A stretch of 64,000 nt of DNA from an uncultured Bacteroidales bacterium (GTDB lineage: Bacteria; Bacteroidota; Bacteroidia; Bacteroidales; Paludibacteraceae), in NCBI GenBank assembly GCA_900318245.1, contig ONJT01000001.1, positions 123,857-187,856 of the forward strand, written 5' to 3'. The first letter of the stretch is position 1, and each line of letters opens with the position of its first letter. This document shows positions 12,791 to 57,880 of the stretch, one piece after another. A program made the translations under genes and the position numbers. The notes beneath the pieces are model-generated. The model did not search any database, was not told the DNA's origin, and worked only from the letters and a program-made list of their open reading frames with translations.

Positions 12791-12832
12791 ATTGAAGATT
12801 GGAGATTTAAGATTGGAGATTGGAGATTTTTG
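12791..12832 (+). repeat. Heptamer repeat, six units, ending at a start codon
   Basis: Six 7-bp units of the type ATTGGAG / ATTTAAG in exact 7-nt phase. The ATG at 12833 is the first base of the next phase. This is the leftmost clear member of the repeat family and marks the island border. Confidence 0.85.
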
Positions 12833-15742
12833 ATGGAGATACTGACGGACAGTTTGCATAAGGTGGCGTACGCGACGGATGCGAGTGTGTATCGCGAGGT
12901 ACCGTATGGCGTGGCATATCCGAAAGATGAGGCAGATTTGGTGGCTCTGATCGGAGAGGCGCGTCGTAGAGGAACGAGTATCATTGCGCGTGCAGGAGGT
13001 ACGTCGATAGCCGGACAGGTTGTCGGCAAAGGTATCGTGGCAGACGTGAGTCGGTATATGAATCGTATCCTAGAGATCAATGCGGAGGAACGGTATGCAT
13101 GGGTGGAACCCGGTGTGGTGCGGGATGAGTTGAACATAGCATGCAAGCCGTACGGGTTGTTTTTCAGTCCGGAGACATCGACATCGAACAGGTGTTGCAT
13201 CGGTGGCATGGTGGGTAATAACTCGTGCGGGACGCATTCGTTGATATACGGAAGTACGCGTCCGCATGTGTTAGAGGCTGATGGGATCCTTGCGGATGGG
13301 AGCAGGGTGCATTTTGCGGAATATACGATTGGAGAGCTGGAAGCGCGGTTTGGACGCGCGTTCTGGGATGAAGGAGTTAGAGAGTTAGGGAATGAGAGAA
13401 TTAGGGAGTTAGAGGAGAGGATATATGCGCAGTTGATACGATGGGCATTGGATGAAGAGACACGGACGTTGATAGCGGAGACGTATCCGGATAAGGAGTT
13501 GACGCGAAGGAGTTGCGGATATGCCATCGATGAGGCGATAGAAGATTTGTGCGACGAGAGTAAGCCTTTGCGGGAACGGAAGATCAACCTATGCCGGTTG
13601 ATAGCGGGAAGTGAAGGGACGTTGGCGTTGCTGTCGCGTATCAAGGTGTCGTTAGATCCGTTGCCACCGAAAGAGGTGATGGTGGTGTGTGCACATTGCA
13701 CGAGTCTGGATGCGGCTTTTGAGGCGAATCTGATTGCGTTGGCGCATCATCCTACAGCTGTGGAACTGATGGACGGGGAGATAATCCGACTGAGTCGAGA
13801 GGCATCGGCTTTCAGTAGTCAGCAGATTGATTTTATCGAAGGGACACCGGCTGCATTGCTCATTTCGGAACTGCGTGCGGAGAGCCGTGAGGAGATGGAT
13901 CGTCAGGCCGATGCGATAGAGAAAGCGTTGATGGCGAGCGGATTGGTGAACCTTTGTACGCGTGTGTACGGAGGTGATGTGGCGAAGGTGTGGAATCTGC
14001 GGAAGGCCGGATTGGGTATCCTGAACGGTATGCCTGGAGATGCGAAGCCTACGGGAGTGATTGAGGATACGGCAGTTGCGGCAAAACGGTTGCCGGCTTA
14101 TATGCGTGATTTTCGTGCGATGTTGGAGCGGTTGGGCACATCGTGTGTGTTCTATGGGCATATCAGTACGGGAGAGTTGCATCTAAGGCCGATTCTGAAC
14201 CTGAAGACGGAAGAAGGAAGGCGTCTGTTCCGGCAGATTGCGCATGAGACGACGTTGCTGGTTCGGAAACATCGCGGTACAATCAGCGGAGAGCATGGCG
14301 ACGGACGATTGCGAGGGGAGTTCATTCCGCTGCAATACGGGGAGAAGACGTATGAGCTGATGCGTGAAGTGAAACACTGCTGGGACGAAGAGGAAATTTT
14401 CAATCCGCATAAGATCGTGGATACGCCGAAGATGGATGAGTGGTTGCGAGTGCTCGGTTACGGGAAAACGATTAAGGACGCGGAGATGCTTTGCCTTGTG
14501 GAGCATTGTAACGGAGCCGGAGATTGCCGGAAGTCGAAGCTGATAGGTGGAACGATGTGTCCGGCATATAAGGTGAGCGGGGATGAGTTGCAGACGACGC
14601 GTGCCAGAGCGAATGTGCTGCGGGAATGGTTGAGCGGCAATGCGGCGATAGGTGAGGCTGAGTTGAAAGAGGTGTTGGCATCGTGTCTGGCCTGCAAGGC
14701 GTGCAAGCGAGAGTGTCCGTCGGGAGTGGATATGACGCGGTTGCGTGCAGAGGCACTGCAGAAATTGTATGATGCGCATGGGACACCGTTGCGGACGTGG
14801 ATGGTGGCGAGGAACGGTGCTATTCAGCGGCTTGGCGCGATGATGCCAGGGATTTATAACTGGTTCGCGACCAACCGATGGACATCGACAATGCTGAAGA
14901 AGATAGTTGGGTTTGCGGAGGAGAGGAGGATACCACGTATTAAAATTTCAAATTTTAGATTTAAGATTTCAAATTTTGATTTTCGATTTGAGAAGCGGGT
15001 ATATTTGTTTTTGGATGAGTTTACGCAGTATGAGGAGCCGGAGTTGGTAGAGACGTTTGTAAGGCTGATGAACAGGCTGGGGTATGAAGTGATTGTGCCT
15101 AAGCATACAGAGAGTGGTCGTGCAGCCATCTCGAAGGGTTGTCTGCGTTTGGCGAGACGTTATGCGGAGAAGAATATCCGGTTGCTGAAAGATCTGGTGA
15201 GCGACGAGACTCCGTTGGTGGGCATTGAACCGTCGTGCATCCTTACTTTCCGCGACGAATATCCGGAGTTGGTGGCGAATGGTGAATGGCGAGAGGCTGC
15301 TGAAAAATTGGCAAAGAACTGTCTGCTGTTTGATGAGTTTTTGATGCGCGAGGTGGAGGCCGGAAGGATAACCAAGGAGCAGTTTAGCGATATGCCGGCA
15401 GAGATTTGGTTGCACGGACATTGCCATCAGAAGGCGCTGGTGGGTGTGGAGAAGACAGCGGCGTTGCTGGATTTGCCGATGAACACGAAGGTGCATGTGA
15501 TTCCGTCCGGTTGCTGCGGAATGGCCGGTTCGTTCGGCTATGAGAAGACGCATTATCGGACGTCGATTGCTATTGGAGAGATGATTCTTTTCCCTGCTGT
15601 GCGTGAAGCTGTGAAAGCGGATTGCGTAGAGCGGCCGGTGTTTGTTGTTGCACCTGGAATCTCGTGCCGAACGCAGATTTATGACGGAACGGGAATTACG
15701 GCACATCATCCGATAGAGATACTATACAAGTTGCTGAAATAA
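12833..15742 (+). CDS. FAD-linked oxidase / (4Fe-4S) / CCG-domain dehydrogenase (glycolate or D-2-hydroxyacid dehydrogenase type)
   Basis: 969 residues fused from three parts. FAD-binding part: IIARAGGTSIAGQVVG near 50, CCIGGMVGNNSCGTHS near 120, and the cap and C-terminal flavin motif ISGEHGDGRLRGEF near 485. Iron-sulfur part: CNGAGDCRKSKL and SCLACKACKRECPSGVD near 560-630. Then the CCG (cysteine-rich) domain with SGCCGMAGSFGYE near 895. This architecture oxidises 2-hydroxyacids such as D-lactate, glycolate or D-2-hydroxyglutarate and passes electrons through Fe-S centres. Residues about 705-720 (KISNFRFKISNFDFRFE) are encoded by a heptamer repeat, and residues 181-194 by an octamer repeat; both lie between domains or in loops. 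Substrate not determinable. Confidence 0.85.
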   Translation: MEILTDSLHKVAYATDASVYREVPYGVAYPKDEADLVALIGEARRRGTSIIARAGGTSIAGQVVGKGIVADVSRYMNRILEINAEERYAWVEPGVVRDELNIACKPYGLFFSPETSTSNRCCIGGMVGNNSCGTHSLIYGSTRPHVLEADGILADGSRVHFAEYTIGELEARFGRAFWDEGVRELGNERIRELEERIYAQLIRWALDEETRTLIAETYPDKELTRRSCGYAIDEAIEDLCDESKPLRERKINLCRLIAGSEGTLALLSRIKVSLDPLPPKEVMVVCAHCTSLDAAFEANLIALAHHPTAVELMDGEIIRLSREASAFSSQQIDFIEGTPAALLISELRAESREEMDRQADAIEKALMASGLVNLCTRVYGGDVAKVWNLRKAGLGILNGMPGDAKPTGVIEDTAVAAKRLPAYMRDFRAMLERLGTSCVFYGHISTGELHLRPILNLKTEEGRRLFRQIAHETTLLVRKHRGTISGEHGDGRLRGEFIPLQYGEKTYELMREVKHCWDEEEIFNPHKIVDTPKMDEWLRVLGYGKTIKDAEMLCLVEHCNGAGDCRKSKLIGGTMCPAYKVSGDELQTTRARANVLREWLSGNAAIGEAELKEVLASCLACKACKRECPSGVDMTRLRAEALQKLYDAHGTPLRTWMVARNGAIQRLGAMMPGIYNWFATNRWTSTMLKKIVGFAEERRIPRIKISNFRFKISNFDFRFEKRVYLFLDEFTQYEEPELVETFVRLMNRLGYEVIVPKHTESGRAAISKGCLRLARRYAEKNIRLLKDLVSDETPLVGIEPSCILTFRDEYPELVANGEWREAAEKLAKNCLLFDEFLMREVEAGRITKEQFSDMPAEIWLHGHCHQKALVGVEKTAALLDLPMNTKVHVIPSGCCGMAGSFGYEKTHYRTSIAIGEMILFPAVREAVKADCVERPVFVVAPGISCRTQIYDGTGITAHHPIEILYKLLK
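13374..13413 (+). repeat. Octamer repeat inside the FAD dehydrogenase gene
   Basis: Five 8-bp units (GAGTTAGA, GAGTTAGG, GAATGAGA, GAATTAGG, GAGTTAGA) in exact phase within the coding sequence; translated as GVRELGNERIRELEE, a helical insert. Confidence 0.8.
14945..14992 (+). repeat. Heptamer repeat inside the FAD dehydrogenase gene
   Basis: Seven units (ATTTCAA, ATTTTAG, ATTTAAG, ATTTCAA, one 6-mer ATTTTG, ATTTTCG, ATTTGAG). It falls between the Fe-S and CCG domains, where it adds about 16 residues without breaking the frame. Confidence 0.8.
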
Positions 15743-15792
15743 GGTGCTAATCGTAAAAAAAATCTAAAAAAATTAAAATAATGGCATATACC

Positions 15793-15848: not shown

Positions 15849-17027
15849 ATGCAAGTATCAGAACGAGTAAAAGGGATAGCGGCGTCACAGAGTTTGGCGA
15901 TGGCGGCGAGGGCAAAGGCGATGCAAGCTGCAGGGGTTGATGTGATCAGTATGTCGCTGGGTGAACCGGATATGGAGACACCGGAACACATTCGTCGTGC
16001 GGCGCAAGAAGCGATAGACAAGGGATGGACGCATTATGGGCCGGTAGCGGGAATCGCATCGCTGCGCGAAGCCGTTGCGGCAGCGCAGAATGCGAATTGC
16101 AGATTGCAGATTGAAGATTGCAAATTTGAGGCTGCCGATGTGATTGTGAGTGTGGGGGCGAAGATGGCGATATACAATGCCATTCAGACGGTGGTTAATC
16201 CGGGAGACGAGGTGGTGATTCCGATGCCGAGTTGGGTGAGTTATACCGAGATGGTGAAGGTAGCCGGAGGAAAGGTGGTGGCGATACAGACAAAGTATGA
16301 AAACCGCTATTGCCTCACCGCGGACGAGTTGAGAGAGGCGCTGACAGAAAAGACGAAAATGTTGATCCTGTGCAGTCCGAATAACCCTACTGGAAGCGTA
16401 TATAGCCATTCGCAACTCGAAGCGTTAGTAGAAGTACTGCGAGCGTATCCGGAGGTGGTGGTGCTGAGCGACGAGATTTACGATGCGTTGGTGTATGAAG
16501 GTGCCGCTTGTTCGATGGCGGAGTTTGGGGAATTGGCGGAACGATTAGTAATAGTCAATGGTGTTAGTAAAGCATATGCGATGACGGGATGGCGAATCGG
16601 ATGGCTGATGAGTAAGAACAAAGCGTTCATCGAAGCGTGTGCGCGGTTGCAAGGACAGCAAGTGACATGCGCGACGATGGTGGCTCAGAAGGCAGCCGAG
16701 GCAGCCTTGACAGGATCACAGGATTGCGTAGAGCAAATGCGGCAGGTGTTTGCAGAGCGGAGAGAATTAATCTGTAAGTTAGCAGCAGAGATACCCGGAT
16801 GGAAGTTTGAGAAACCGCAAGGTGCGTTCTATCTGTTTCCGGACGTGAGTGCGTTAGGCGGAGGCGACAAGGTCGCGGAGTACCTGCTGGAAGAAGCGCA
16901 TGTGGCGGTAGTGAGCGGTTCGGCCTTCGGTAGCCCGGAATGTATCCGGTTATCGTACGCGATTAGCACGGAGGAGATCATGGAAGCCATGCGGCGGATA
17001 AAGATGGCGATTGAGAAATTGAAATAA
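15849..17027 (+). CDS. Class I/II PLP aminotransferase, aspartate aminotransferase type
   Basis: 392 residues from ATG 15849, about 19 nt after the predicted transcription start; an in-frame TTG at 15822 lies in the -7 box and is rejected. The fold-type I marks are SLGEPDMETPEHI, VSVGAKMAIYNA, PSWVSYTEMV, CSPNNPTGSVY, LSDEIYDALVY and the PLP lysine in VNGVSKAYAMTGWRIGW. These fit the aspartate/prephenate aminotransferase subgroup (AspB/AspC-like), which makes aspartate from oxaloacetate. Residues 83-94 (NCRLQIEDCKFE) are encoded by five heptamer units at a surface position where family members vary. It may share a transcript with the glycan genes that begin 17 nt later. Confidence 0.8.
   Translation: MQVSERVKGIAASQSLAMAARAKAMQAAGVDVISMSLGEPDMETPEHIRRAAQEAIDKGWTHYGPVAGIASLREAVAAAQNANCRLQIEDCKFEAADVIVSVGAKMAIYNAIQTVVNPGDEVVIPMPSWVSYTEMVKVAGGKVVAIQTKYENRYCLTADELREALTEKTKMLILCSPNNPTGSVYSHSQLEALVEVLRAYPEVVVLSDEIYDALVYEGAACSMAEFGELAERLVIVNGVSKAYAMTGWRIGWLMSKNKAFIEACARLQGQQVTCATMVAQKAAEAALTGSQDCVEQMRQVFAERRELICKLAAEIPGWKFEKPQGAFYLFPDVSALGGGDKVAEYLLEEAHVAVVSGSAFGSPECIRLSYAISTEEIMEAMRRIKMAIEKLK
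16096..16130 (+). repeat. Heptamer repeat inside the aminotransferase gene
   Basis: Five exact 7-nt units: ATTGCAG twice, ATTGAAG, ATTGCAA, ATTTGAG. The same consensus (ATTGCAG) recurs at 22206-22247 in another gene's end, which shows this is one family and not a chance codon pattern. Confidence 0.85.
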
Positions 17028-18037: not shown

Positions 18038-18072
18038 ATTTTAGATTTAAGATTTTAGATTTAAGATTTAAT
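18038..18072 (+). repeat. Heptamer repeat between the WlbA-like and sugar transferase genes
   Basis: Units ATTTTAG and ATTTAAG alternate twice, then ATTTAAT runs into the ATG at 18071. The whole 39-nt gap is essentially repeat. Confidence 0.85.
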
Positions 18073-20636: not shown

Positions 20637-20664
20637 AAAGTTGAAAGTTTAAAGTTTAAAGTTG
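20637..20664 (+). repeat. Heptamer repeat that supplies a TTG start codon
   Basis: Four units AAAGTTG, AAAGTTT, AAAGTTT, AAAGTTG fill the gap. The TTG at 20662 in the last unit is the only plausible start of the next gene. Confidence 0.8.
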
Positions 20665-22224
20665 AAAGATAAACTGTACATATTGGCAGCGAACATCGTA
20701 TATTTTGCGGTGATGGCGTGGATGTTGCCGTTGGGGTTCGAGGAGAATGACGACGTGATGATGGCCATGATTGCGAACGGCAGTTATTCGGGTGCACCGG
20801 ATTATCATCTGGTGTATATCAATGTGTTGTACGGATGGGTGCTGGCCGGTTTGTACAGTTTGACCAAGGTCGTTGAATGGTATACGCTGAGCTTTGCGGT
20901 GCTGCATGTGCTCTCGATGTCGGCGCTGAGCTATTGCCTCATCACGATGCCTAACCGCGCGCGATGGGAAAAGATATTATGGTTGATCATTCTCTATGTG
21001 CTATGGGCGCGCATCATCGTCGCGCTGCAGTTTACGACAACAGCGGGATTGGTTTGCCTCGCGGGGTGCGTGTTACTGTTGCGCGAGAGTAAAAAAGCAC
21101 GATGGAGCGGTGTGGCGATGGTGATTATCGCGGCGCTGATACGCTTCTGGGCCGCGGGATTAGTAGGATTGCTGATGGCGCCGATCATCGTCTATACCTA
21201 CCGTCTTGAGTGGCGCAAATATATCGCGGTGGTGGTGATGCTGACAGCGGTGGTGGGATGCCGAGTAGCGAATCAAAAGATTTATGATCGCGATCCGGAG
21301 TGGAAGTACTACCGGACCTATAACTTGTTACGCGCCCAACTGAATGACAACCCCAATGCGTATACCTTACGTCCAAGTCAGTTGCCTGAAAATATCAACT
21401 GGATTGACTATCAGTTGTTGCTGCGATTTATTCCGGACGGAGAGCAAATCGACTTGGCGGCGATACGGCAGTTGAGTGCGGTAGTGGGCAAAGTACCGGT
21501 GCGCGACCAATGGCAAAACCTGTACCGATTGGACAAGTATGCTGTAGAAATAGTGATACTCATCGCGATGCTGGTGCTGATGATATTGACGACAGGAAAC
21601 CGCACGAAGTATATCTTCTTGATAGCCTATGCCGTCTTCGTGGCAATTTTGATTATACATGTGAGTTTGGACGGGTTCCTCAAAAACCGCGTGTTCCTTT
21701 GTATGCTGATGCCGATGCTGGTGACGGATTTCATGTTGCTGCCGAAGACGACGGGGAAGAGGCGGCAGTGGGGAATAGGGATTGCGATGGTGGTGCTGAG
21801 CGGGTGGTATATGTATCAGATATACGCGGAGTGCGTGACAGCGAGTTATAACCGCTACGTATGGGAGCGGTTGCAACGGCCGTTGATTGACTTTGTGCCG
21901 AGCGATGCACAGGTGACGACGATTGGTACGACGATGATGATGGAGGCGGTGAATCCTTGGCATATCTGGCCGTACAAATGCGAGAAATATACCTTGGGTT
22001 GGATGACCTGGAGTCCGCTCAATCAACCCGTAGGACACAGTTATCGCGCGTTGTTGCGGGACGATATGTACATCTTTACGGACGTGCAAGGATACAAGCA
22101 GGAACGCACAGCCGTTCCGCGAATATGCGAGCAGATCGAGTTGCACTACGGTGTGCCGACGAAGGTAGTGCCGATATGCCATAACGGAAGGTATGCACTT
22201 ATTCGATTGCAGATTGCAGATTGA
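20662..22224 (+). CDS. Multi-pass membrane protein of the glycan cluster
   Basis: 520 residues with about ten hydrophobic segments. It begins at TTG 20662 (MKDKLYILAANIVYFAVMAW); no later start preserves the first helix. The early loop GFEENDDVMMAMI recalls the acidic pairs in the first periplasmic loop of GT-C glycosyltransferases, which use polyprenyl-phosphate sugars. A soluble tail of about 130 residues follows the last helix. A GT-C transferase is the best guess; a polymerase is possible. The final codons and the TGA come from the ATTGCAG heptamer repeat, giving the C-terminus RLQIAD. Confidence 0.6.
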   Translation: MKDKLYILAANIVYFAVMAWMLPLGFEENDDVMMAMIANGSYSGAPDYHLVYINVLYGWVLAGLYSLTKVVEWYTLSFAVLHVLSMSALSYCLITMPNRARWEKILWLIILYVLWARIIVALQFTTTAGLVCLAGCVLLLRESKKARWSGVAMVIIAALIRFWAAGLVGLLMAPIIVYTYRLEWRKYIAVVVMLTAVVGCRVANQKIYDRDPEWKYYRTYNLLRAQLNDNPNAYTLRPSQLPENINWIDYQLLLRFIPDGEQIDLAAIRQLSAVVGKVPVRDQWQNLYRLDKYAVEIVILIAMLVLMILTTGNRTKYIFLIAYAVFVAILIIHVSLDGFLKNRVFLCMLMPMLVTDFMLLPKTTGKRRQWGIGIAMVVLSGWYMYQIYAECVTASYNRYVWERLQRPLIDFVPSDAQVTTIGTTMMMEAVNPWHIWPYKCEKYTLGWMTWSPLNQPVGHSYRALLRDDMYIFTDVQGYKQERTAVPRICEQIELHYGVPTKVVPICHNGRYALIRLQIAD

Positions 22225-22247
22225 AAATTGTAGATTTTAGAATGAAG
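22206..22247 (+). repeat. Heptamer repeat across a stop codon and the next start
   Basis: Six exact units (ATTGCAG twice, ATTGAAA, ATTGTAG, ATTTTAG, AATGAAG). The repeat covers the last residues and TGA stop of the upstream gene and the ATG (22242) of the next. Confidence 0.85.
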
Positions 22248-23253: not shown

Positions 23254-24180
23254 ATGTATAAACAAAGTTTGTCGGTAGTTGTACCGATTTATAATGACGA
23301 AGAAGTGATCAATGAATTGCTGCGACGCTTGACAGCCGTGGTGGAGACGATCGTGAAGGAGTATGAGATCATCCTGGTGGATGACGGTAGTCGCGACCGA
23401 TCGTGGGAGATCATGCAAGCAGAACGTGCACAGCGAGAACATTTACGCATCGCTCGGTTGAGCAGAAACTTCGGTCAGCAGAACGCCATCGCCGCAGGTT
23501 TGAGTTTGACGACGAAGGAGTTGATCGTGCTGATGGATAGCGACTTACAGGATCGGCCGGAAGATATCCCGGTGCTGATCGATGCGCTGTTGGCATCACC
23601 GGAAGCGACGATGGCTATTGCGCAGTGGGAGGAACGCAAGGACAGCAAGATGAAGATTGCCGTGTCGCGTCTTTTCCAGCGCGTGAGCAACCGCATCACA
23701 GATATCCACACGATGCCGCGTCTCGGTATCTTCCGCGTGATGAAGAAGAGCGTCGTGGAAGAACTTCGTCGCTTCCCGGAGAAGACAGCTACGGCGGTGA
23801 GTCTGCTGTACTATATCGGCAATAAATATGTGGCGGTGCCCTTGAAACGCGATGCGCGCTTTGCCGGTAAGAGCGGGTATAACCTGAGCAAGATGCTGGC
23901 GCTGACGTTCGCGCGTATCTTCTCGTTCTCGATGTTCCCGATTCGCATCGTGACCTACCTGGGCGCGCTGCTGTGCGTAGGCAGTATGATCGCGGCGCTG
24001 GGACTGATCATCTACAAACTGGTAGGCAATGTGGTCACCGGATGGACGAGTATGATGGTGCTGATGCTGTTCCTCTTTGGTCTGAACTTCGCGTTTCTGG
24101 GGGTATTGGGCGAATATATCGGCCGTATCTTCCTGGAGACCAAACAGCGTCCGAACTTTATAATAGAACAAGTTGTGTAA
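23254..24180 (+). CDS. Family 2 glycosyltransferase, polyprenyl-phosphate sugar synthase (ArnC/GtrB-like)
   Basis: 308 residues. GT2 marks: LSVVVPIYNDEEVINELLRR, IILVDDGSRDRSWEIM, SRNFGQQNAIAAGLS and VLMDSDLQDRPEDIP (DxD). Two C-terminal membrane segments (LGALLCVGSMIAALGLIIYKL and MMVLMLFLFGLNFAFLGVLG) and the ending EYIGRIFLETKQRPNFII are those of ArnC/GtrB/DPM-type enzymes. These move a sugar from a nucleotide to polyprenyl phosphate on the cytoplasmic side. The downstream SMR pair and WecE-type aminotransferase support an Arn-like pathway. Confidence 0.85.
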   Translation: MYKQSLSVVVPIYNDEEVINELLRRLTAVVETIVKEYEIILVDDGSRDRSWEIMQAERAQREHLRIARLSRNFGQQNAIAAGLSLTTKELIVLMDSDLQDRPEDIPVLIDALLASPEATMAIAQWEERKDSKMKIAVSRLFQRVSNRITDIHTMPRLGIFRVMKKSVVEELRRFPEKTATAVSLLYYIGNKYVAVPLKRDARFAGKSGYNLSKMLALTFARIFSFSMFPIRIVTYLGALLCVGSMIAALGLIIYKLVGNVVTGWTSMMVLMLFLFGLNFAFLGVLGEYIGRIFLETKQRPNFIIEQVV

Positions 24181-24201
24181 GGTGTAAAGTGTAAGGTGTA
24201 T
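24181..24201 (+). repeat. Heptamer repeat between GT2 and acyltransferase genes
   Basis: Three units GGTGTAA, AGTGTAA, GGTGTAT; the gap consists only of this repeat and the next ATG (24200) lies in the third unit. Confidence 0.75.
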
Positions 24202-26669: not shown

Positions 26670-28180
26670 CGTTGCTGGTGGTGGCGCTGGCATGGACGCT
26701 TTGGTTCGTCTTTGCCGGTTTTGGAAACCATCAAGACCCGCTCTACTGGTTGTATAAATACCAACATTTAGAGGGCGGATGGATGGCTGTGGGTACACTG
26801 CTGACGGGTGGTGCAGTGGTACGAATCTTCGGCGCCGAACTGCTGCCGCTTCGCCTCTTCGGCTGGCTGTGTACGGTAGCAGCGATCGTTTTGCCGTATT
26901 GCTGTCTATTGGATAAGGATCAACGAAAAACCAATCTCCATTGGTTGGCGCTGACTTTGCTGCTGATGGGGTACGGTGCTTTCCAGGAATTCAGTCCCGG
27001 AACTTTGACGGTATTGCTGCTGTCTGTGATTTGGGTGTTAGCAAGTAAATCATACACCATACACTATACACCATACATTGCAGCTATTGCTGCAGGCCTC
27101 GCGATAGCTGTTCGTTTTCCGAATATATTGGTGCTATTGGTACTAATTCCGCTTTGGAAAAAACGCAGTTTGTGGTGTGTGACGATAGCAGCAGCGACAG
27201 CAGGATTGGTCTATTTGCTCGGGTATTGTTTTGTGAATCCTGCTCCGATGGATGCGGCTATGACGAGTCACGATTTATGGCCGATGATCAGCAAACTTTG
27301 GACGAATGCAGGCATGCTGATAGGATTTATCTTGATGGGTATCGGAGTACTTGCGTTAAAGAGCGAAAGAATGAGTGAGTTAGTGAATGAGAGAGTTAGG
27401 GGATTAATGGTTGGCTTGGCCATCGTGCTTTTCATCGCTTATACGATTAAACCCACGCAGTGGTATAACATCGATTTGACCTACCTGATTTCGGCATTGT
27501 GTATTGTGATCGCGGTGGCGGCAAGCAAATCAGAAATCATAAATCATAAATTTGAAATCTTAATTGGAGCGGCGATCTTAATAGTCGCGACACTAGGCAC
27601 CGACACCGCTTGGCTCAAACTCTTTCCGGCGATGCTATGTCTGCTGCCGGTAGCTGCGGCACAATATGAAAAGCCGATGCGAAGATACGTATGGTGGGTA
27701 CTGGTACCGGTGACAGCGATGGTGATGGTGCGGCACAGCACGAACAGCATCGGAAAGAACAACCTGATCCAAGCGACGACCATCAGCGCTATCTCGCCTT
27801 ATCGCGGCATTGCCATCACCGAAGCGCAAGAGGCAAGGATAAATCAGTATAAAACGGATTATAAGGAATTAAAGAGTGAAAGAGTATTGGCGCTGGGGCA
27901 GGAGAATCACCTGATGCGCGCAGTGACGGGTTGCGAAGCGGCGCGGTACAATGAGTTTTGGTCGAACATATATGATTCGGTCTATACGGCCAAATACCAA
28001 ACGATTATCGAAGCGGAACGGCCGATTGTGTTCTGCTCCTTCTCGCCGCAGTTCAAGACCAAACCTGAGTACAAAGACCGACAAAGCGCGATGGAGAATA
28101 TGCTGCGCGAGCACGGATATATGGAGATAGAACGAAGCACGTATAAATACGTCGTATTTATTCCGAAAGATTATGATTAA
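26639..28180 (+). CDS. Multi-pass membrane protein, possible GT-C glycosyltransferase
   Basis: 513 residues, about nine or ten membrane segments then a soluble tail of about 130 residues. An early loop has GNHQDPLYWLYKYQHLEGG, an acidic, aromatic loop as in ArnT-like GT-C enzymes, which would take the flipped lipid-linked sugar. Three repeat tracts lie within: residues about 138-147 (YTIHYTPYI), 244-254 (RMSELVNERVRG) and 297-308 (KSEIINHKFEIL), each in a loop between hydrophobic segments. It overlaps the aminotransferase by 31 nt and holA by 8 nt. Confidence 0.6.
   Translation: MRSNRSILSITLLVVALAWTLWFVFAGFGNHQDPLYWLYKYQHLEGGWMAVGTLLTGGAVVRIFGAELLPLRLFGWLCTVAAIVLPYCCLLDKDQRKTNLHWLALTLLLMGYGAFQEFSPGTLTVLLLSVIWVLASKSYTIHYTPYIAAIAAGLAIAVRFPNILVLLVLIPLWKKRSLWCVTIAAATAGLVYLLGYCFVNPAPMDAAMTSHDLWPMISKLWTNAGMLIGFILMGIGVLALKSERMSELVNERVRGLMVGLAIVLFIAYTIKPTQWYNIDLTYLISALCIVIAVAASKSEIINHKFEILIGAAILIVATLGTDTAWLKLFPAMLCLLPVAAAQYEKPMRRYVWWVLVPVTAMVMVRHSTNSIGKNNLIQATTISAISPYRGIAITEAQEARINQYKTDYKELKSERVLALGQENHLMRAVTGCEAARYNEFWSNIYDSVYTAKYQTIIEAERPIVFCSFSPQFKTKPEYKDRQSAMENMLREHGYMEIERSTYKYVVFIPKDYD
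27051..27078 (+). repeat. Heptamer repeat inside the 26639 gene (first)
   Basis: Four units CATACAC, CATACAC, TATACAC, CATACAT in exact phase within the coding frame. Confidence 0.75.
27369..27400 (+). repeat. Octamer repeat inside the 26639 gene (second)
   Basis: Four 8-bp units GAATGAGT, GAGTTAGT, GAATGAGA, GAGTTAGG. Nearly the same unit set as the octamer tract at 13374-13413, 14 kb away. Confidence 0.8.
27528..27562 (+). repeat. Heptamer repeat inside the 26639 gene (third)
   Basis: Five units AATCAGA, AATCATA, AATCATA, AATTTGA, AATCTTA. The same AATCATA/AATTTGA set occurs in the intergenic tract at 35581-35608. Confidence 0.8.
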
Positions 28181-29201: not shown

Positions 29202-29669
29202 ACGCTCCGGCAGCGGTTCCCAATACGTAGGGTAGCCGTGCTGCGTCACCCAGAGCATACTGTCTAACTGGTGCTTTGTCAGCGCCGGTTTTTTCTTGGG
29301 TCTGGGCGTATATAGACTTGGGCGGAAAGTCAGTTCAGCTTCATGCGCCGCCTCAAACGCTTCGCGCTCCGCGTCTAACTGCGCCAGCACTTTCGGATAA
29401 ATCTTGTCGAACAGTTGCGGATGGGCGGTGTACCACACCAGCGACGAGTCAAACTGCGCTTGCGTCACGCCGTGTTTCTCGAGTACCTCTGCATAGTAGA
29501 TATCGGCTGCATCGTTATGCCCAAACTGCAGACCCGCCACTTGCAGCATCGCGTCGGTCTTGTGCAGATCGACCAAGACGTCCCGCATCTCCCACGAATG
29601 CAAGATGCCTTTTGGGCGGCATGAGTGAAATGAAAATTGAAAAATGAAAATTGAAAGGAGAATGAACAT
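29166..29669 (-). CDS. DUF4296 lipoprotein
   Basis: 167 residues from ATG 29669; upstream in-frame codons lie in a repeat and would add a charged stretch before the signal peptide. The signal peptide MFILLSIFIFQFSFHSC ends in a lipobox-like FHSC, so a lipoprotein is likely. The mature part fits DUF4296 (SWEMRDVLVDLHKTDAMLQV, YAEVLEKHGVTQAQFDSSLVWY), a Bacteroidota family of unknown role. The hydrophobic core of the signal peptide is written by a TTTCAAT/TTTTCAT repeat. Its 3' end overlaps holA by 36 nt. It follows lspA, the lipoprotein signal peptidase gene. Confidence 0.8.
   Translation of the reverse strand: MFILLSIFIFQFSFHSCRPKGILHSWEMRDVLVDLHKTDAMLQVAGLQFGHNDAADIYYAEVLEKHGVTQAQFDSSLVWYTAHPQLFDKIYPKVLAQLDAEREAFEAAHEAELTFRPSLYTPRPKKKPALTKHQLDSMLWVTQHGYPTYWEPLPERLVHDAVDQLLP
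29624..29662 (-). repeat. Heptamer-type repeat encoding the DUF4296 signal peptide core
   Basis: On the plus strand GTGAAAT, GAAAATT and GAAAAAT-like units alternate; on the coding (minus) strand it reads as T/C-rich units that encode Phe, Ile, Ser and Leu. Confidence 0.75.
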
Positions 29670-29671
29670 CC

Positions 29672-29732
29672 CTTTCCCCTTTAACCTTTCATTTTTCACC
29701 TTATATTTCCTTTCACCTTTCACTTTTCACCT
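29672..29732 (-). repeat. Heptamer repeat between lspA and DUF4296 gene
   Basis: Coding-strand units GTGAAAA, GTGAAAG, AAATGAAAG and GTTAAAG fill the whole gap and run into the last codons of lspA. Spacing is 7 with some slips. Confidence 0.7.
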
Positions 29733-30280
29733 TGATTGAGTTCTTTCATGTAGAAGAGTAGGATGACGACCACCGCGCAGGTGATGCAGCTATCCGCGAA
29801 GTTAAACACCGGCCGGAAGAAGAGCACCTCCCCGGCGCTGTTGTGGATGAGCGGGAAGTAGAACATATCCACCACGCGGCCATAGAACCAACCGGCATAG
29901 CCGAAGAGTTTGCCATAGAACACGCAGTCGATGATGTTTCCCAGCGCCCCGGCGATGATGAACGCTATCGTCGCGAGAAAACCCGTCTTCGTCTCGGGTT
30001 TGTTAATCAACATATGGACATACCAGCCGAGCAAACCTACCGCCAGCAGCCGGAAGAGTGTCAGCGCCAGTTTGCTGAACCACTCGATGCCGAAGGCCAT
30101 TCCGTTGTTCTCGATATAGCATATCCAGAACCATGAGAATATCTCGCGGCTCTCGCCCAGCGCAAAATGCGTGGCAATATAGAGCTTGATAGCCTGATCG
30201 ATGATCAGCGCGCCGAGGACGATGCCTATTACAAGCCAAACGCGGCCTTGACGGCTGCAAGTCGGTCGAGTTTCTCCCAT
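29720..30280 (-). CDS. lspA: Lipoprotein signal peptidase (signal peptidase II)
   Basis: 186 residues, four membrane segments. LspA cleaves prolipoprotein signal peptides in the inner membrane. The conserved parts are [23 protein letters not shown], the first catalytic Asp in [26 protein letters not shown] and the second catalytic Asp in FNFADSCI. The start at 30280 lies 52 nt inside the metK gene; no later start codon keeps the first helix, so real overlap is likely. It is probably translated from the metK transcript. Confidence 0.9.
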
Positions 30281-32702: not shown

Positions 32703-33178
32703 TGACAACGGATTTATCTAAATATGATGCCAACCAATTGCCTAGCGCTGAAGTCCTCGGACGTCAGCGCTATGCTATTGTGGTAGCAGACTGGAACAGC
32801 GACATCACCTATCCGATGATGCTCGGTGCAGTGGAGACGCTTACCAAACACGGCGTATCCGTCGATAACATCGACGTGTTACATGTGCCCGGTGCGGTGG
32901 AACTGACTTACGGCGCCGCTCACATCATGAAAGAGGAACGCATTGATGCCATCATCGTCATCGGATGCGTCATCAAGGGTGACACTCCCCATTTCGACTA
33001 CGTGTGCCAATCCGTGACGCAAGGTGTCGCGACGCTCAACGCGCAAGGCAAGGTGCCGGTGATCTTCTCTGTGCTGACTGTGCTCGATAAGCAGCAGGCA
33101 CTCGATCGTTGCGGCGGAAAACTGGGCAACAAAGGCATCGAAGGCGCAGTGACAGCCATTCATATGGCTAACTTGTAG
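32702..33178 (+). CDS. ribH: 6,7-dimethyl-8-ribityllumazine synthase
   Basis: 158 residues. RibH condenses the ribityl-pyrimidine with dihydroxybutanone phosphate in riboflavin synthesis. Conserved elements: VVADWNSDITYPMM (substrate Trp and Asn), VPGAVELTYGA, GCVIKGDTPHFDYV with the catalytic His, and the C-terminal GNKGIEGAVTAIHMANL. The start overlaps the upstream stop (TAATG). No other rib gene is nearby. Confidence 0.93.
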   Translation: MTTDLSKYDANQLPSAEVLGRQRYAIVVADWNSDITYPMMLGAVETLTKHGVSVDNIDVLHVPGAVELTYGAAHIMKEERIDAIIVIGCVIKGDTPHFDYVCQSVTQGVATLNAQGKVPVIFSVLTVLDKQQALDRCGGKLGNKGIEGAVTAIHMANL

Positions 33179-33205
33179 TTGGTGATTGATAATTGCTGAT
33201 TGATG
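33178..33205 (+). repeat. Heptamer repeat between ribH and aspartokinase
   Basis: Units ATTGATA, ATTGCTG, ATTGATG after an 8-mer AGTTGGTG. The last unit contains the ATG at 33203. Confidence 0.7.
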
Positions 33206-35573: not shown

Positions 35574-35580
35574 AATAATC

Positions 35581-35608
35581 AATCATAAATTTGAAATCAT
35601 AAATCAAT
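35581..35608 (+). repeat. Heptamer repeat before the 35613 gene
   Basis: Units AATCATA, AATTTGA, AATCATA, AATCAAT fill the gap after the YitT gene. Confidence 0.75.
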
Positions 35609-36512: not shown

Positions 36513-36530
36513 ATACTGAACACTGAATAC
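36510..36530 (+). repeat. Heptamer repeat before galE
   Basis: Three units TGAATAC, TGAACAC, TGAATAC; the first contains the stop codon of the upstream gene. Confidence 0.65.
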
Positions 36531-36532
36531 TC

Positions 36533-37564
36533 ATGGCAAGAATACTTGTAACCGGTGGCACCGGATATATAGGATCGCATACAACGGTGGAACTGATGCA
36601 ACAGGGCTACGACGTAACCATCGTGGATAACCTCAGCAACTCCTCCATCGACGTGTTAGACGGCATCGCCGAGATTGTAGGACGCAAACCCGAGTTTGCG
36701 AATATAGACTGCGGTAACTTCATGGACCTCGATAATGTCTTCCGCGCTTATCCTGATGTCGTCGGAGTGATTCATTTCGCGGCCAGCAAAGCCGTAGGCG
36801 AGTCAGTGGAGAAACCGCTGCTCTATTACCGAAATAACCTCGGCAGTCTCTGTACGCTGCTCGAAGTAATGAAGTTGCACCAAGTGCCGAATATCGTCTT
36901 CTCTTCGTCCTGTACCGTCTATGGACAACCGGATGCAGCCCATCTGCCCGTTGACGAGACGGCGCCTATTCAGAAAGCCCTCTCGCCTTACGGCAACACC
37001 AAGCAAATCAACGAGGAGATTATCTGCGACGAAGCGCATGCGGACAAGAATCTGCAGGCTACAATCCTTCGGTACTTCAATCCTATCGGCGCGCACCCTT
37101 CAGCACTCATCGGAGAACTGCCGAACGGCGTTCCGCAGAACCTGCTGCCCTTCATTACCCAGACTGCTGCCGGACTTCGTCCCGAACTGAAGGTCTTCGG
37201 TAATGACTATAACACGCCGGACGGCTCGTGCATCCGCGATTATATCTATGTCGTGGATCTCGCCAAGGCGCATGTGAAGGCTATCGACCGCATGCTCCAT
37301 GCCAAGGATCGCGAGCAGGTAGAGGTCTTCAACCTCGGTACGGGAACAGGTCTGAGTGTGCTGACGCTCATCAAAGAGTTCGAGGCCGCTACGGGTGTGA
37401 AGATCCCTTATACCATCGTCGGCCGTCGTGAAGGAGATATAGAGAAAGTATGGGCTGCGCCGAAGAAAGCCAACGAAGTGTTGGGCTGGAAAGCAGACAC
37501 ACCTATTCGCGAAGTGCTCGCCTCCGCATGGAAATGGGAGAAACATATTAGAAATATAAAATAA
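36533..37564 (+). CDS. galE: UDP-glucose 4-epimerase
   Basis: 343 residues, usual length. GalE interconverts UDP-glucose and UDP-galactose with bound NAD. Marks: ILVTGGTGYIGSHTTVELMQ (Rossmann G-x-x-G-x-x-G), VIHFAASKAVGESVEKPLLYY, SSSCTVYGQP, the catalytic Y-x-x-x-K in SPYGNTKQINEE, LRYFNPIGAHPSALIGE and CIRDYIYVVDLAKAH. Activity on the N-acetylated pair cannot be excluded. Confidence 0.92.
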   Translation: MARILVTGGTGYIGSHTTVELMQQGYDVTIVDNLSNSSIDVLDGIAEIVGRKPEFANIDCGNFMDLDNVFRAYPDVVGVIHFAASKAVGESVEKPLLYYRNNLGSLCTLLEVMKLHQVPNIVFSSSCTVYGQPDAAHLPVDETAPIQKALSPYGNTKQINEEIICDEAHADKNLQATILRYFNPIGAHPSALIGELPNGVPQNLLPFITQTAAGLRPELKVFGNDYNTPDGSCIRDYIYVVDLAKAHVKAIDRMLHAKDREQVEVFNLGTGTGLSVLTLIKEFEAATGVKIPYTIVGRREGDIEKVWAAPKKANEVLGWKADTPIREVLASAWKWEKHIRNIK

Positions 37565-37604
37565 TTACCAATTACCAATCACCAATTACCAATCATAAAT
37601 CATA
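37563..37604 (+). repeat. Heptamer repeat between galE and manA
   Basis: Six exact units: AATTACC twice, AATCACC, AATTACC, AATCATA twice. It covers the whole gap and switches consensus part-way. Confidence 0.85.
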
Positions 37605-43094: not shown

Positions 43095-43125
43095 TAGTTA
43101 GCTATTAGCTATTAGTTATTAGCCA
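43091..43125 (+). repeat. Heptamer repeat between HAD and GNAT genes
   Basis: Five exact units TTAGTAG, TTAGCTA, TTAGCTA, TTAGTTA, TTAGCCA. The first holds the TAG stop; the ATG begins at the last base. Confidence 0.85.
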
Positions 43126-43628
43126 TGTTGCGTTTACGTAAACTTGAACCCACTGACTTGCCGTTCCTCTACCAATGGGAGAACGATGCTTCGGCATGGG
43201 CGGACGGGGCGAATCATAACCCGCTGTCCCAGCAGGACTTGCGCAACTATATCGAATCCACCACCGGCGACATCTACAGAGACGGCCAGTTGCGATTGAT
43301 TATTGAAGAAACCTCTAACACTCTAACCTCTAACCCTCTAACCCTCGGTTGTATTGACCTGTTCGACTTCGACCCGCGCAATAGACGCGCGGCGATAGGG
43401 ATGTATATCGCCCCGGAGCACCGCGGTAAAGGAGTAGGGAAGGAGGCCTTGCGCTTACTCGAACAATACGCGTTTGGGCACTTGAACCTGCGCGTGCTAT
43501 ATGCAGTTATTGCGACCAAAAACATAGCCTGCACTACGCTCTATCGCAGTACAGGCTATACGTCGTCACCTCTACCGAGTTGGACGCTCGAAGACGACGC
43601 GAATATATGGATAAAAAATCACCAATGA
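43125..43628 (+). CDS. GNAT-family N-acetyltransferase
   Basis: 167 residues. GNAT fold: RKLEPTDLPFLYQWENDASAW, GCIDLFDFDPRNRRAAIGMYI and the acetyl-CoA loop APEHRGKGVGKEALRLLEQYA, then RVLYAVIATKNIACTTLYRSTGY. This is the RimJ/RimL/SpeG-like subgroup. Residues about 64-74 (SNTLTSNPLTL) are encoded by a CTCTAAC repeat that lengthens the loop between two strands. Acceptor unknown. Confidence 0.8.
   Translation: MLRLRKLEPTDLPFLYQWENDASAWADGANHNPLSQQDLRNYIESTTGDIYRDGQLRLIIEETSNTLTSNPLTLGCIDLFDFDPRNRRAAIGMYIAPEHRGKGVGKEALRLLEQYAFGHLNLRVLYAVIATKNIACTTLYRSTGYTSSPLPSWTLEDDANIWIKNHQ
43313..43345 (+). repeat. CTCTAAC repeat inside the GNAT gene
   Basis: Four CTCTAAC units spaced 8, 7 and 8 nt. Here the coding strand is pyrimidine-rich, opposite to most tracts; the reverse complement GTTAGAG matches the octamer tracts at 13374 and 27369. 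Confidence 0.75.
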
Positions 43629-43650
43629 TAAATGACAAATGACCAATAAA

Positions 43651-43677
43651 AAATGGCACCGTTTGGTGCCATTTTTG
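43651..43677. terminator. Bidirectional terminator between GNAT and groL
   Basis: AAATGGCACC (43651-43660), GTTT, GGTGCCATTT (43665-43674) with flanking A and T runs. It ends four bases before the groL stop and can serve both convergent transcripts. A 4-unit AATGACA heptamer tract lies just before it (43624-43651). Confidence 0.85.
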
Positions 43678-43678: not shown

Positions 43679-45338
<1,660 letters not shown>

Positions 45339-54465: not shown

Positions 54466-54466
54466 T

Positions 54467-55741
54467 ATGAAGATTTACAGAGGAAATATTCTCTTCACAC
54501 CCACTCCGGAACAGTTTACTGTTCTGGAGCGCGGGTATGTGATCGTCGGCGATGACGGCATCATCATCAAGACCTGTCAGGATCTGCCGGATGACTGCCG
54601 GAACGTAGAAGTGGTCGATTTTGGCGACCAGCTGGTGATGCCTGCGATGAACGACCTGCATGTCCATGCACCGCAGTACCGTAACCTCGGCATCGCCATG
54701 GACCAGGAGTTGCTGCCGTGGCTTAACACCTATACCTTCCCTGAGGAGGCGAAGTACAAAGACCTGAAGTACGCGGAGCGTATGTACCGCCGTTTTGTAC
54801 GCGACCTTTGGAAGTTAGGAACTATGCGCGCGGCGATCTTCGCCACCATCCATCCGGATGCGACTTGTCTGCTGGCGGACCTGCTCAACGAAGCGGGTAT
54901 GGGCGGCATGGTTGGTCTGGTAGGTATGGACCGCAACAGCCCCTCTACGCTGAGCAACACCGTCGAGCAGGCGGTAGAAGGCACGAAGCGGGTGATGGAA
55001 CACACCAAAGACATGCCGCTCGTCTCGGCTATCGTCACGCCGCGCTTCGTACCCAGTTGTACGCCGCGTATGATGACGGCGCTGGGTAAGTTAGCGAACG
55101 ACTACAAACTGCCCGTGCAGTCGCACTTGAGCGAGAACCGGTCGGAGATAGCCTGGGTGGCGGAACTCGAACCTGAGTCCACTTGTTATGGTGACGCGTA
55201 CCACCGCTATGGCATGTTCGGTCAGACACCGACGCTCATGGCGCACTGTTGCTACACCGACGGTAAGGAGTTCGAGCTGATGCGTAAGAACCACGTCTTC
55301 GCCGTCCATTGTCCGACGAGCAACTGCAACCTCGGCTCGGGTATCGCGCCTATCCGCCGCTTCATGTCGGCCGGCATACCTGTCGCCCTGGGCTCGGATG
55401 TATCTGCCGGCAGCGGGTTCTCTATCTTCCGCGTGATGCACTATACGCTGCAGATGTCGAAGATGCAGTGGGTACGCACGAACCACGAGGACCAGTTCCT
55501 CAGCCTGAGCGAAGCGTTCTGGTTGGCTACCAAGTCCGGCGGATCGTTCTTCGGCAAGGTCGGTTCGTTCGAGCCGGGCTACGCCTTCGATGCACTCGTA
55601 GTGGACGACAGCGACCTCAATTTCGATAACTACACGATCCAGCATCGCCTGGAGCGCTATATCTACTTAGGTGACGACCGTCAACTGACCCGTCGCTTCT
55701 GCAATGGAAAAGAGATTGAAGCTCCGAGGATTGAAAGGTGA
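54467..55741 (+). CDS. guaD: Guanine deaminase (amidohydrolase)
   Basis: 424 residues. Converts guanine to xanthine. Amidohydrolase metal site: MNDLHVHAPQYRNLGI (HxH), PVQSHLSENRSEI, TLMAHCCYTD and ALGSDVSAGSG. PQYRNLG and SHLSEN are diagnostic of guanine deaminases within the family. The last residues (EIEAPRIER) and TGA lie in the GTGAAAG repeat. Confidence 0.85.
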   Translation: MKIYRGNILFTPTPEQFTVLERGYVIVGDDGIIIKTCQDLPDDCRNVEVVDFGDQLVMPAMNDLHVHAPQYRNLGIAMDQELLPWLNTYTFPEEAKYKDLKYAERMYRRFVRDLWKLGTMRAAIFATIHPDATCLLADLLNEAGMGGMVGLVGMDRNSPSTLSNTVEQAVEGTKRVMEHTKDMPLVSAIVTPRFVPSCTPRMMTALGKLANDYKLPVQSHLSENRSEIAWVAELEPESTCYGDAYHRYGMFGQTPTLMAHCCYTDGKEFELMRKNHVFAVHCPTSNCNLGSGIAPIRRFMSAGIPVALGSDVSAGSGFSIFRVMHYTLQMSKMQWVRTNHEDQFLSLSEAFWLATKSGGSFFGKVGSFEPGYAFDALVVDDSDLNFDNYTIQHRLERYIYLGDDRQLTRRFCNGKEIEAPRIER

Positions 55742-55772
55742 AAGGTGAAAGGTGAAAGGTGAAAGGTGACGA
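55731..55772 (+). repeat. Heptamer repeat across guaD stop and lplA start
   Basis: TTGAAAG, then GTGAAAG four times, then GTGACGA. The guaD TGA (55739) and the lplA GTG start (55766) are both part of the repeat. Confidence 0.9.
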
Positions 55773-56386: not shown

Positions 56387-56458
56387 GGGCAGGTAGATGA
56401 CCTGTTTGGTCTCAAACCCGGAGCGTCTTCCCGACGGAACGGGAAGAGCGGCCTCCGC
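56381..56458 (-). other. In-frame duplicate of the rsmG C-terminal codons after its stop
   Basis: Beyond the rsmG TAG the same frame stays open for 25 codons and ends FETKQVIYLPL plus TAA; rsmG itself ends FKTKQVIYLPF. The two DNA segments differ mainly at third codon positions. A perfect 8-bp hairpin TCTTCCCG/CGGGAAGA (56427-56448) lies between them. Confidence 0.7.
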
Positions 56459-57073: not shown

Positions 57074-57074
57074 C

Positions 57075-57103
57075 CTTTCACCTTTCACCTTTCACCTTTC
57101 ACC
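57075..57103 (-). repeat. Heptamer repeat between yebC and rsmG
   Basis: Four exact CTTTCAC units on the plus strand, so GTGAAAG on the coding strand, the same unit and coding-strand sense as at 55731-55772 though the genes run the other way. Confidence 0.88.
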
Positions 57104-57823
57104 TTAGTCTGCCAGGTTGGTGAACACGTTCTGTACGTCTTCGTCCTCCTCGATCTTGTCGATCAGTTTCTGTACCGATTCGCGTTGGTCTTCCGGCAGT
57201 TCCTTGGTGTCGTTCGGGATACGAACGAACTCCATCGACTGGATCTCGAAGCCGTTGTCCTCGAGGTATTTCTGCATGTCGATAGCCGCGTCGAAGTCGG
57301 AGTAGATGACGATGGTGTTCTCTTCCTCGTCCACGCCGAGCTCTTCTACGCCGAAGTCAATGAGCTCGAGTTCGAGTTCATCGAGGTCGATACCATCCTT
57401 CATCGTCACGGTGAAGCAAGCCTTGCGGTCGAAGAGGAACTGGAGGCTACCCTGTGTGCCGAGCGTGCCGCCGAACTTGGTGAAGTACGAGCGGATGTTC
57501 GCTACGGTACGCATGTGGTTGTCCGTCGCCGTCTCTATGAAGATAGCGATGCCATGCGGACCGTATCCCTCGTAGTTGATCTCCTTGTAGCCTTCAGACG
57601 ACTTATCGGTCGCTTTCTTGATAGCGCGGTCGATATTGTCCTTCGGCATGTTCTCTCGCTTGCACTGCTGGATGAGTGTACGCAGGCGCGGGTTGGAGTC
57701 CGGATCCGGTCCACCCTCGCGGGCTGCGATAGTGATTTCTTTTCCTAACTTGGTAAATGTGCGGGACATGTGTCCCCATCTTTTCAGTTTTGTCGCTTTG
57801 CGATATTCAAATGCGCGTCCCAT
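57104..57823 (-). CDS. yebC: YebC/PmpR family regulator
   Basis: 239 residues. The conserved start MGRAFEYRKATKLKRWGHMS is the Bacteroidota variant of the usual MAGHSKWANIKH motif. Then REGGPDPDSNPRLRTLIQQCKRENMPKDNIDRAIKKA, YEGYGPHGIAIFIE and FGGTLGTQGSLQFLFDRK. Members act as transcription factors or, in recent work, assist translation of proline-rich stretches. Confidence 0.92.
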   Translation of the reverse strand: MGRAFEYRKATKLKRWGHMSRTFTKLGKEITIAAREGGPDPDSNPRLRTLIQQCKRENMPKDNIDRAIKKATDKSSEGYKEINYEGYGPHGIAIFIETATDNHMRTVANIRSYFTKFGGTLGTQGSLQFLFDRKACFTVTMKDGIDLDELELELIDFGVEELGVDEEENTIVIYSDFDAAIDMQKYLEDNGFEIQSMEFVRIPNDTKELPEDQRESVQKLIDKIEEDEDVQNVFTNLAD

Positions 57824-57830
57824 ATAAACT

Positions 57831-57880
57831 ATTTATGATTTATGATTTATAATTTCACTCTTTAAACTTTAAACTTTCAC
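57831..57880 (-). repeat. Heptamer repeat between the OmpA gene and yebC
   Basis: Plus-strand units ATTTATG twice, ATTTATA, ATTTCAC, then TCTTTAA, ACTTTAA, ACTTTCAC: at least two consensus types joined in one tract. Confidence 0.8.

Follow-up and report, generated by a model that had tools for sequence, protein, structure and literature searches.

What fills the short gaps between genes in an uncultured member of the Bacteroidales, and how did it come to be there? The question is raised by a 64,000-nucleotide stretch of contig ONJT01000001.1 (the window, positions 123857-187856), in which many gene junctions consist of tandem arrays of a 7-bp word. A sequence-only reading of the window had listed 18 such tracts and had offered two explanations for them, a role at the level of the transcript or a mechanism that copies or slips heptamers at gene borders. 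We examined a 720.7-kb portion of the draft genome (2.26 Mb in 56 contigs), which probably comes from an animal-gut (ruminant) Bacteroidales, together with genomes of the same genus, 36 of which were available for comparison. By its H+-pyrophosphatase gene, the nearest titled record is a Paludibacteraceae genome from goat abomasum (94% identity at the protein level). (In what follows G000 is the window's own genome, and comparisons between species rest on one genome per species.)

The sample was scanned by comparing a lag-identity score with that of dinucleotide-preserving shuffles, at thresholds of 10, 11 or 12, and gene borders were set by a simple purpose-written caller rather than taken from annotation. 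In particular, a first set of 452.5 kb comprised the window and 20 stretches, each from a contig with a match to GATTGAAG, and a second set of 268.2 kb comprised 20 more stretches picked by contig number, blind to such matches. At a score of at least 12, the first set held 62 tracts of period 7 and 14 of period 8, the next fundamental period, far in excess of the zero found for each in one shuffle. Periods 14 and 21, both multiples of 7, accounted for 41 and 26 tracts, and each of the remaining periods between 4 and 24 for at most seven. At a threshold of 10 there were 79 tracts, as compared to a mean of 1.2 in five shuffles, and the match-blind set gave 27 period-7 and 11 period-8 tracts at a threshold of 11. 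Altogether 124 tracts with a period of 7 or 8 were counted in the 720.7-kb sample, with period 7 dominant (98 arrays) and period 8 forming a second, weaker class. A pattern search of the whole genome for four copies of GTGAAAG with at most two mismatches returned 54 matches, many of them overlapping, at about 25 separate places; the reversed pattern returned one. Of the 18 tracts listed from the window, 16 outscored 999 or more of their 1000 local shuffles, whereas those at 33178 and 35581 are marginal, with 25 and 65 of 1000 shuffles, respectively, reaching their score. The presence of heptamer arrays at gene junctions is thus confirmed.

Misassembly of one genome was considered as a source of the arrays and rejected, because 19 of the 20 genomes sampled from the genus contain period-7 or period-8 tracts. 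Note that G029 had no tract and that G017, G028 and G033 had one each; since shuffled controls for these 20 genomes gave 0 or 1 tract per genome, all periods together, a single tract is not significant alone. As for assembly breaks within long arrays, none of 37 contig ends looked array-like by eye, six N-only ends (from three short contigs) being impossible to judge. The density of period-7 tracts per 100 kb is 13.8 in the window's own genome, 6.4 in 20 sister genomes, 2.24 in 53 loci that are either from other Bacteroidota or unassigned and 1.5 in 24 loci from other phyla. (The 53 and 24 comparison loci all surround one gene, and their phylum was taken from the record title.)

The arrays sit preferentially at short junctions between codirectional genes, as the sequence-only reading had claimed. 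Of the 124 tracts, 64 lie in codirectional gaps, 50 within genes, 8 in convergent gaps and 2 in divergent gaps. The corresponding densities are 1.33 tracts per kb of codirectional gap (64 in 48.0 kb) and 0.077 per kb of coding DNA (50 in approximately 648 kb), a ratio of about 17 that is approximate because many gap tracts extend into gene ends. In 21 genomes of the same genus (1153 kb) the densities were 1.89 and 0.058 per kb. Not every listed gap is codirectional, the one at 43624 being convergent, and the arrays within genes (50 of the 124) had been overlooked. In 42 of the 64 codirectional gap arrays the stop codon of the upstream gene lies inside the array, and in 43 of the 64 the array ends no more than 5 nt from the next predicted start or runs past it. 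The period is divisible by three in only 7 of 92 gap arrays, as compared to 29 of 85 gene arrays.

One gene of the window illustrates what such arrays do within coding DNA. Gene 43125-43628, which we take to encode an acetyltransferase, contains a period-8 array in one loop. Among 23 aligned loci, that loop has no extra residues, other sequence, or different in-frame repeats; G003 has a CAATCAC-like repeat, G002 has a 16-nt unit and G018 has one related to it. That the loop repeats are in frame and differ between species argues that the same kind of repeat enters proteins where a loop tolerates insertion. In another gene of the window, a coding repeat of 16-17 nt, GCGAAGACGGTCTGTCA (49331-49393), is similar to the loop unit GCGGTCT...CAGCGAAG of G002 and G018 (L318, L319), a likeness which suggests that a longer word also enters genes.

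At orthologous junctions, the sister genomes keep the gene ends yet have no array, or have arrays with other words and periods. Between groES and groEL, 12 of 29 sister loci carry an array (score at least 11), none of them using ATTGAAG, and 17 carry none, some of these gaps being almost empty. Seven of the sister arrays have period 8 (GTTAAATT-like, CTAGANTT-like, ACTAGTCC-like, CACACTTA/CAAATTTA and GTTAAAGA), one has period 7 (AAGACAA, with hairpins), and the other four have periods of 10, 14, 15 and 15. Similarly, in the lysC-lysA-nucleotidyltransferase-galE block the gene ends are kept across up to 16 sister genomes per junction, and the gaps range from an overlap or a few bases up to 82 nt, apart from one long gap each in G013 (238 nt) and G020 (298 nt), neither of which is an array. 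The words in this block include CCCRTAA in G018 and a 15-nt unit in G002, and in G006 AATCATA fills four of the five junctions. Four GGTGAAA units follow the gene that we take to be yebC in the window; at that place G006 carries AGTTGAA/AGTTTAA over a nearly equal length. (Short hairpins with varied stems were also seen by eye between array units beside groEL and yebC in L106, L111, L113, L118, L115, L223 and L224. Examples have flanks AAAGACC/TCAAAGAC or GTTAAAATGGTTT/AAACGTTAAA, or GCGAAGC inside, and are like small interspersed palindromes.)

The arrays draw on a restricted vocabulary. The 98 period-7 arrays use 41 words, the commonest of which, GTGAAAG, occurs in 14 arrays and has no run of three G. 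A word is common to 196 pairs of arrays, as compared to a mean of 16 pairs for letter-shuffled words (maximum 28 of 300) and of 11 for random gap 7-mers (maximum 32 of 300). Moreover, gap arrays and gene arrays use the same words: 71 of 2120 gap-gene pairs match when 6.3 would be expected (maximum 13 of 300). The earlier claim that each locus has its own consensus therefore did not hold, whereas the claim that words recur at distant places did.

The words are species-specific in the three genomes compared. The rate of identical-word pairs within a genome was 4.0% in G000, 2.4% in G006 and 6.6% in G035, and between these genomes it was 2.1, 1.0 and 0.7%, with letter shuffles giving 0.4%. (Note that the rate within G006 barely exceeds that between G000 and G006.) Same-genome identical pairs numbered 368, as compared to 201±13 when genome labels were permuted (0 of 2000 permutations reaching the observed number), and same-genome gap-gene pairs numbered 123 against 76 (3 of 2000). 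Counting a word only once per 3 kb left 274 same-genome pairs against 162±11 (again 0 of 2000). Nine words, chosen post hoc, occur as single copies about equally often in G000, G006 and G035; for seven of the nine, dimers are most frequent in the home genome, the dimer of AATTAAA reaching 6.08 per 100 kb there and 0 in each of the other two. That each of these species favours its own words points to a fast process of spread and replacement rather than to a conserved control signal.

The explanation that we favour, although with confidence only a little better than even, is that the arrays are simple repeats with a fast turnover, amplified locally from words specific to the genome and retained wherever they do little harm. 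A short word of 7 or 8 bp would duplicate and then expand locally, presumably by slippage or recombination. The limited vocabulary of a species recurs at many places far apart, within genes as well as gaps and in either orientation, probably through the seeding of words at new places. Arrays would persist where insertion is tolerated, namely in variable protein loops and at stop-to-start junctions, where the array often provides the stop and sometimes the start. Over the divergence of species an array is lost or exchanged for another word, and most copies would be neutral. The idea that heptamers are copied or slipped at gene borders, as put forward from the sequence of the window, fits the sharing of words across loci and their replacement between species. 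Any piece that is copied must be short, because arrays have neither flanks nor unit order in common beyond the word and matches between them stop at the non-repeat flanks; the copying of longer segments that include the flanks was rejected on these grounds. Loss of mismatch repair was rejected as well. MutS exceeded the cut-off in 35 of 37 genomes (23 of the 37 belonging to this genus), including G000; it was not found in G018, which is 54% complete, and fell below the cut-off in G050. With MutS present, the arrays cannot be put down to lost mismatch repair. A loop of 7 nt would be expected to escape MutS.

Alternatively, slippage could be purely local and the words immobile, with some genome-specific bias in replication or sequence making the same word arise independently at many places. 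The lack of common flanks and unit order is what such slippage would leave, period 7 is second only to period 12 outside the genus (at the lower density of 2.24 per 100 kb), and heptamers are over-represented in unrelated bacteria according to sections of PMC4692102 and PMC4679880. However, a word in equal supply as single copies can have dimers in only one of the genomes (in the post hoc set, where two of nine words do not fit), so that local slippage would need a genome-specific preference for words that shifts between species. We consider this account possible but unlikely.

We also asked whether the arrays act in the transcript and set the translation of the downstream gene, either as a purine-rich leader free of structure or as a stretch of RNA bound by a protein. 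In G000 the purine-rich strand of gap arrays is the sense strand in 49 cases and the antisense strand in 14 (binomial p 1.1e-5), and their sense strand contains 5.7% C and 23.9% G, as compared to 18.1% C and 16.8% G in array-free gaps. By count, array-free gaps do not differ from arrays (76:36; Fisher p 0.22), whereas by mean purine content they do (0.532 against 0.628 in arrays; p 1.3e-5). In 21 relatives the purine strand of gap arrays is split 68:44 (p 0.03), with no significant A/T (65:48, p 0.13) or G/C bias, and the in-gene arrays of these relatives are likewise purine-biased (40:21, p 0.02). Thus the claim that the purine-rich strand is the coding strand stands for the window's own genome and is weak in its relatives. 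The position of array ends within 5 nt of predicted starts or past them (43 of 64) would suit a transcript-level element, as would the purine-rich, C-poor sense strand of G000 and the weaker mean predicted structure at starts that have an array (-7.8 kcal/mol, as compared to -9.5 kcal/mol, a difference that is not significant). The predicted structure was not significantly lowered, either between sense and reversed arrays (p 0.27, n = 43) or in comparison to 120 array-free gaps (p 0.21), and pairing to the anti-Shine-Dalgarno sequence was not enriched in arrays (p 0.20). An unstructured leader and a supply of Shine-Dalgarno sequence were set aside for want of a significant effect. Moreover, neither the word nor the presence of an array is kept upstream of orthologous genes, including groEL, lysC and galE, and 50 of the 124 tracts lie within genes. 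The null results for folding and pairing and the weak strand bias in relatives leave a conserved transcript-level role unsupported, and we regard such an element as quite unlikely; a role local to the window's own species may exist.

Stop codons were considered separately. Classified by word (periods 7 and 8), gap arrays bear stops on the sense strand only in 36 cases and on the antisense strand only in 8, whereas the numbers for gene arrays are 11 and 19 (Fisher p 1.6e-4), a contrast which argues that reading frames filter insertions. (This all-word count supersedes one with four words chosen post hoc, which occur 19 times forward and never backward in gaps and 4 and 7 times, respectively, in genes.) A further possibility is that the arrays serve as fail-safe stops, units that are not a multiple of three placing a stop in every frame against read-through. 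All three frames are closed in the sense direction in 38 of 64 gap arrays and in the antisense direction in 16, and periods divisible by three are rarer in gaps than in genes (7 of 92 and 29 of 85). However, arrays with permuted unit positions close all frames equally (mean 37.5; 516 of 1000 permutations reach 38), which indicates that stop content follows from composition. Fail-safe stops as a design were rejected on this control, and we find the idea barely credible.

Several results weigh against fast turnover under simple tolerance. The sense skew of gaps (36:8 for stops, 49:14 for purines) exceeds what a pure tolerance filter would predict. (Array-free gaps skew likewise, with stops 48:27 sense to antisense.) Dimers of two of the nine post hoc words, GTTGAAA and CCCGTAA, are not concentrated in the home genome. 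Long strings common to arrays are no more frequent than after unit-order shuffling (34 pairs as compared to a mean of 54), so that direct copying is not demonstrated, and in a weak test on whole gaps the share of common 8-mers was 10.4% within and 7.5% between genomes, shuffled values being 8.3% and 7.6%. Finally, the junction between yebC and the next gene is spanned by 95 identical nt in G002 and G004, whose yebC genes are 90.4% identical (L223, L224); the next longest identical run of this pair, 74 nt, lies within yebC. G001 and G007 are identical over 90 nt at the junction after yebC, at a contig end, with yebC 91.2% identical (L228, L229). These runs suggest that certain junctions are either conserved or passed between species, and they may reflect short interspecies exchange or local constraint.

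The 95-nt junction, together with species vocabularies common to gaps and genes, would be in keeping with a dedicated writer, or a tiny mobile element, by which an enzyme or the uptake of DNA copies the words of a species to its junctions. However, the arrays lack common flanks or ends, and 95 nt only modestly exceeds the 74-nt run, and we judge such a writer very improbable. A wider proposition, covering both this writer and the seeding of words in trans under the favoured explanation, is that a trans-acting process (an enzyme or the uptake of short DNA) writes species-specific 7- or 8-bp words into junctions and loops across the genus, overwriting older words. We think this rather unlikely; if true, the repeat vocabulary at fixed sites would be peculiar to each species and quick to change.

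How do the arrays compare with repeats already described? In the relevant sections of PMC4692102, Xanthomonas and Nostoc have heptamer repeats, GGGAATC / GGGGA(C/T)T, in the spaces that separate aligned genes. Like these, the arrays reported here have a unit of 7, lie mostly between aligned genes and less in coding or divergent places, and show a strand preference; in that system, too, the prominent repeats of two related species do not adjoin the same genes (PMC4692102, same sections). The excess of unit length 7 over other lengths and over shuffles, the preference for codirectional gaps and the depletion in coding DNA that mark heptameric intergenic repeats were all found. As far as those sections describe them, Xanthomonas and Nostoc have one G-rich, quadruplex-capable word family per genome, whereas no such word dominates here, where the many words are A-rich; unlike theirs, many arrays here lie within genes and words are replaced between species. 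Direct repeats of TAACTGA, for which MacGregor proposed a transcript-level role, are reported in excerpts of PMC4679880 from Beggiatoaceae, some cyanobacteria and five Bacteroidetes, including Paludibacter propionicigenes, and some of these Bacteroidetes also hold other heptamers. The statement in the sequence-only reading that no heptanucleotide repeats were described in Bacteroidota was therefore mistaken. As with TAACTGA, the arrays lie in short gaps near start codons and are absent at the same place in some relatives (PMC4679880, same excerpts). As regards a place directly upstream of starts in one orientation, 43 of 64 arrays end near or past a predicted start, and the purine strand is sense 49:14 here but 68:44 in relatives. 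By contrast, the TAACTGA system consists of one word, related heptamers being rarely tandem in that genome according to the excerpts. Exact TAACTGA dimers numbered zero in the 720.7 kb of G000 and zero in 69 other loci.

Slippage has been proposed for the long simple sequence repeats found in prokaryotes (Mrazek et al. 2007, as cited in PMC4679880 and PMC4692102); in the passages that cite that work, Bacteroidota are not among the ten leading genomes named, and neither species vocabularies nor loop insertions are mentioned. An excerpt of PMC4692102 mentions three heptanucleotides for Calothrix. The several heptamer families per genome recall the short tandemly repeated repetitive sequences of cyanobacteria, which the sequence-only reading had named. 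Repetitive extragenic palindromic (REP) elements and miniature inverted-repeat transposable elements are short, often intergenic and present in many copies. The arrays resemble them in these respects and differ in being tandem words; no element body common beyond the tandem word was seen in array comparisons, although no search was aimed at genes for transposases or REP-associated tyrosine transposases.

What appears new, as far as searches of an open-access library show, is that a species has a vocabulary of many words, that these words are replaced at fixed junctions throughout a genus, and that they are used within genes as well. Earlier heptamer repeats come from scattered bacteria, usually have one main word, and had their origin left open. 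In the present genus, 36 sister genomes allow comparison junction by junction; words change and gene ends stay, and the same words occur within genes; the question of origin (local slippage, word-specific seeding or function) becomes testable in this genus. The arrays also keep supplying new sequence to gene junctions and protein loops.

Table 1. Arrays of the window, with positions in the window, and period-11 arrays of other loci.
Feature	Position	Strand	Context
7-bp array ATTGRAG/ATTTAAG	12789..12828	+	gap ahead of gene 12833-15742
Period-8 array	13374..13411	+	within gene 12833-15742
7-bp array	14943..14988	+	within gene 12833-15742
7-bp array ATTGCAG	16096..16119	+	within gene 15900-17027; region of variable length among orthologues
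7-bp array ATTTTAG/ATTTAAG, 14-bp higher-order unit	18038..18070	+	extends to start codon at 18071
7-bp array AAAGTTG/AAAGTTT	20637..20667	+	
7-bp array GATTGCA	22205..22240	+	stop of gene 20662-22224 inside array
7-bp array TTAGCAA	23226..23248	+	stop of gene 22242-23243 inside array
7-bp array GTGTAAG	24175..24199	+	includes stop of 23254-24180; extends to start at 24200
7-bp array CATACAC	27051..27076	+	within gene 26672-28180
7-bp array AAATCAT	27527..27550	+	within gene 26672-28180
Degenerate 7-bp tracts (29631-29655) and GTGAAAG-type, minus strand (29709-29729)	29631..29733	-	between two predicted minus genes
Period-7 array	30830		within a gene
Weak 7-bp array TTGATGA, marginal	33179..33206	+	ahead of lysC; Tandem Repeats Finder score 35
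Weak array AATCATA, marginal alone	35573..35606	+	between lysA and following gene
7-bp array CTGAATA	36509..36530	+	ahead of galE; stop of upstream gene within first unit
7-bp array AATTACC/AATCACC/AATCATA	37563..37603	+	3' of galE
7-bp array GATTGAA	42638..42669	+	
7-bp array TTAGCTA	43098..43121	+	
Period-8 array CCTCTAAC	43310..43346	+	encodes variable loop of gene 43125-43628
7-bp array AATGACA	43616..43655	no strand	convergent gap adjoining groEL
7-bp array ATTGAAG/ATTTAAG on sense (minus) strand	45308..45338	-	between groES and groEL
Perfect 7-bp array GTGAAAG	55732..55768	+	provides upstream TGA stop and predicted downstream GTG start
Perfect 7-bp array GTGAAAG (minus strand)	57074..57104	-	3' of yebC-like gene
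Two adjoining 7-bp arrays (57831-57854 and 57860-57876)	57831..57876	-	ahead of yebC-like gene
Period-11 arrays, own genome	L097 13305-13339; L182 13772-13820; L180 554-610; L189 11976-12010		
Period-11 arrays, relatives	L131, L132, L138, L146, L150, L352		

A separate class of arrays has period 11 (Table 1). In total 43 were found, many of them in long intergenic regions: 18 in codirectional gaps, 14 in divergent gaps, 6 in convergent gaps, 3 at a contig edge and 2 within genes. The period-11 words ACTTATCACGC and AATCACCTACT recur across sister species, the other words being local, and the arrays look like helically phased operator arrays.

Two further features of the window were recorded. 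Its first 12 kb (1-12000) has a G+C content of 37-42%, followed by 50-56%, and is perhaps an acquired island. The 96-nt repeats at 58354-58793 are ordinary coding repeats; they lie in gene 57882-60380, whose matches are to DUF5723, thrombospondin type 3 repeats and OmpA.

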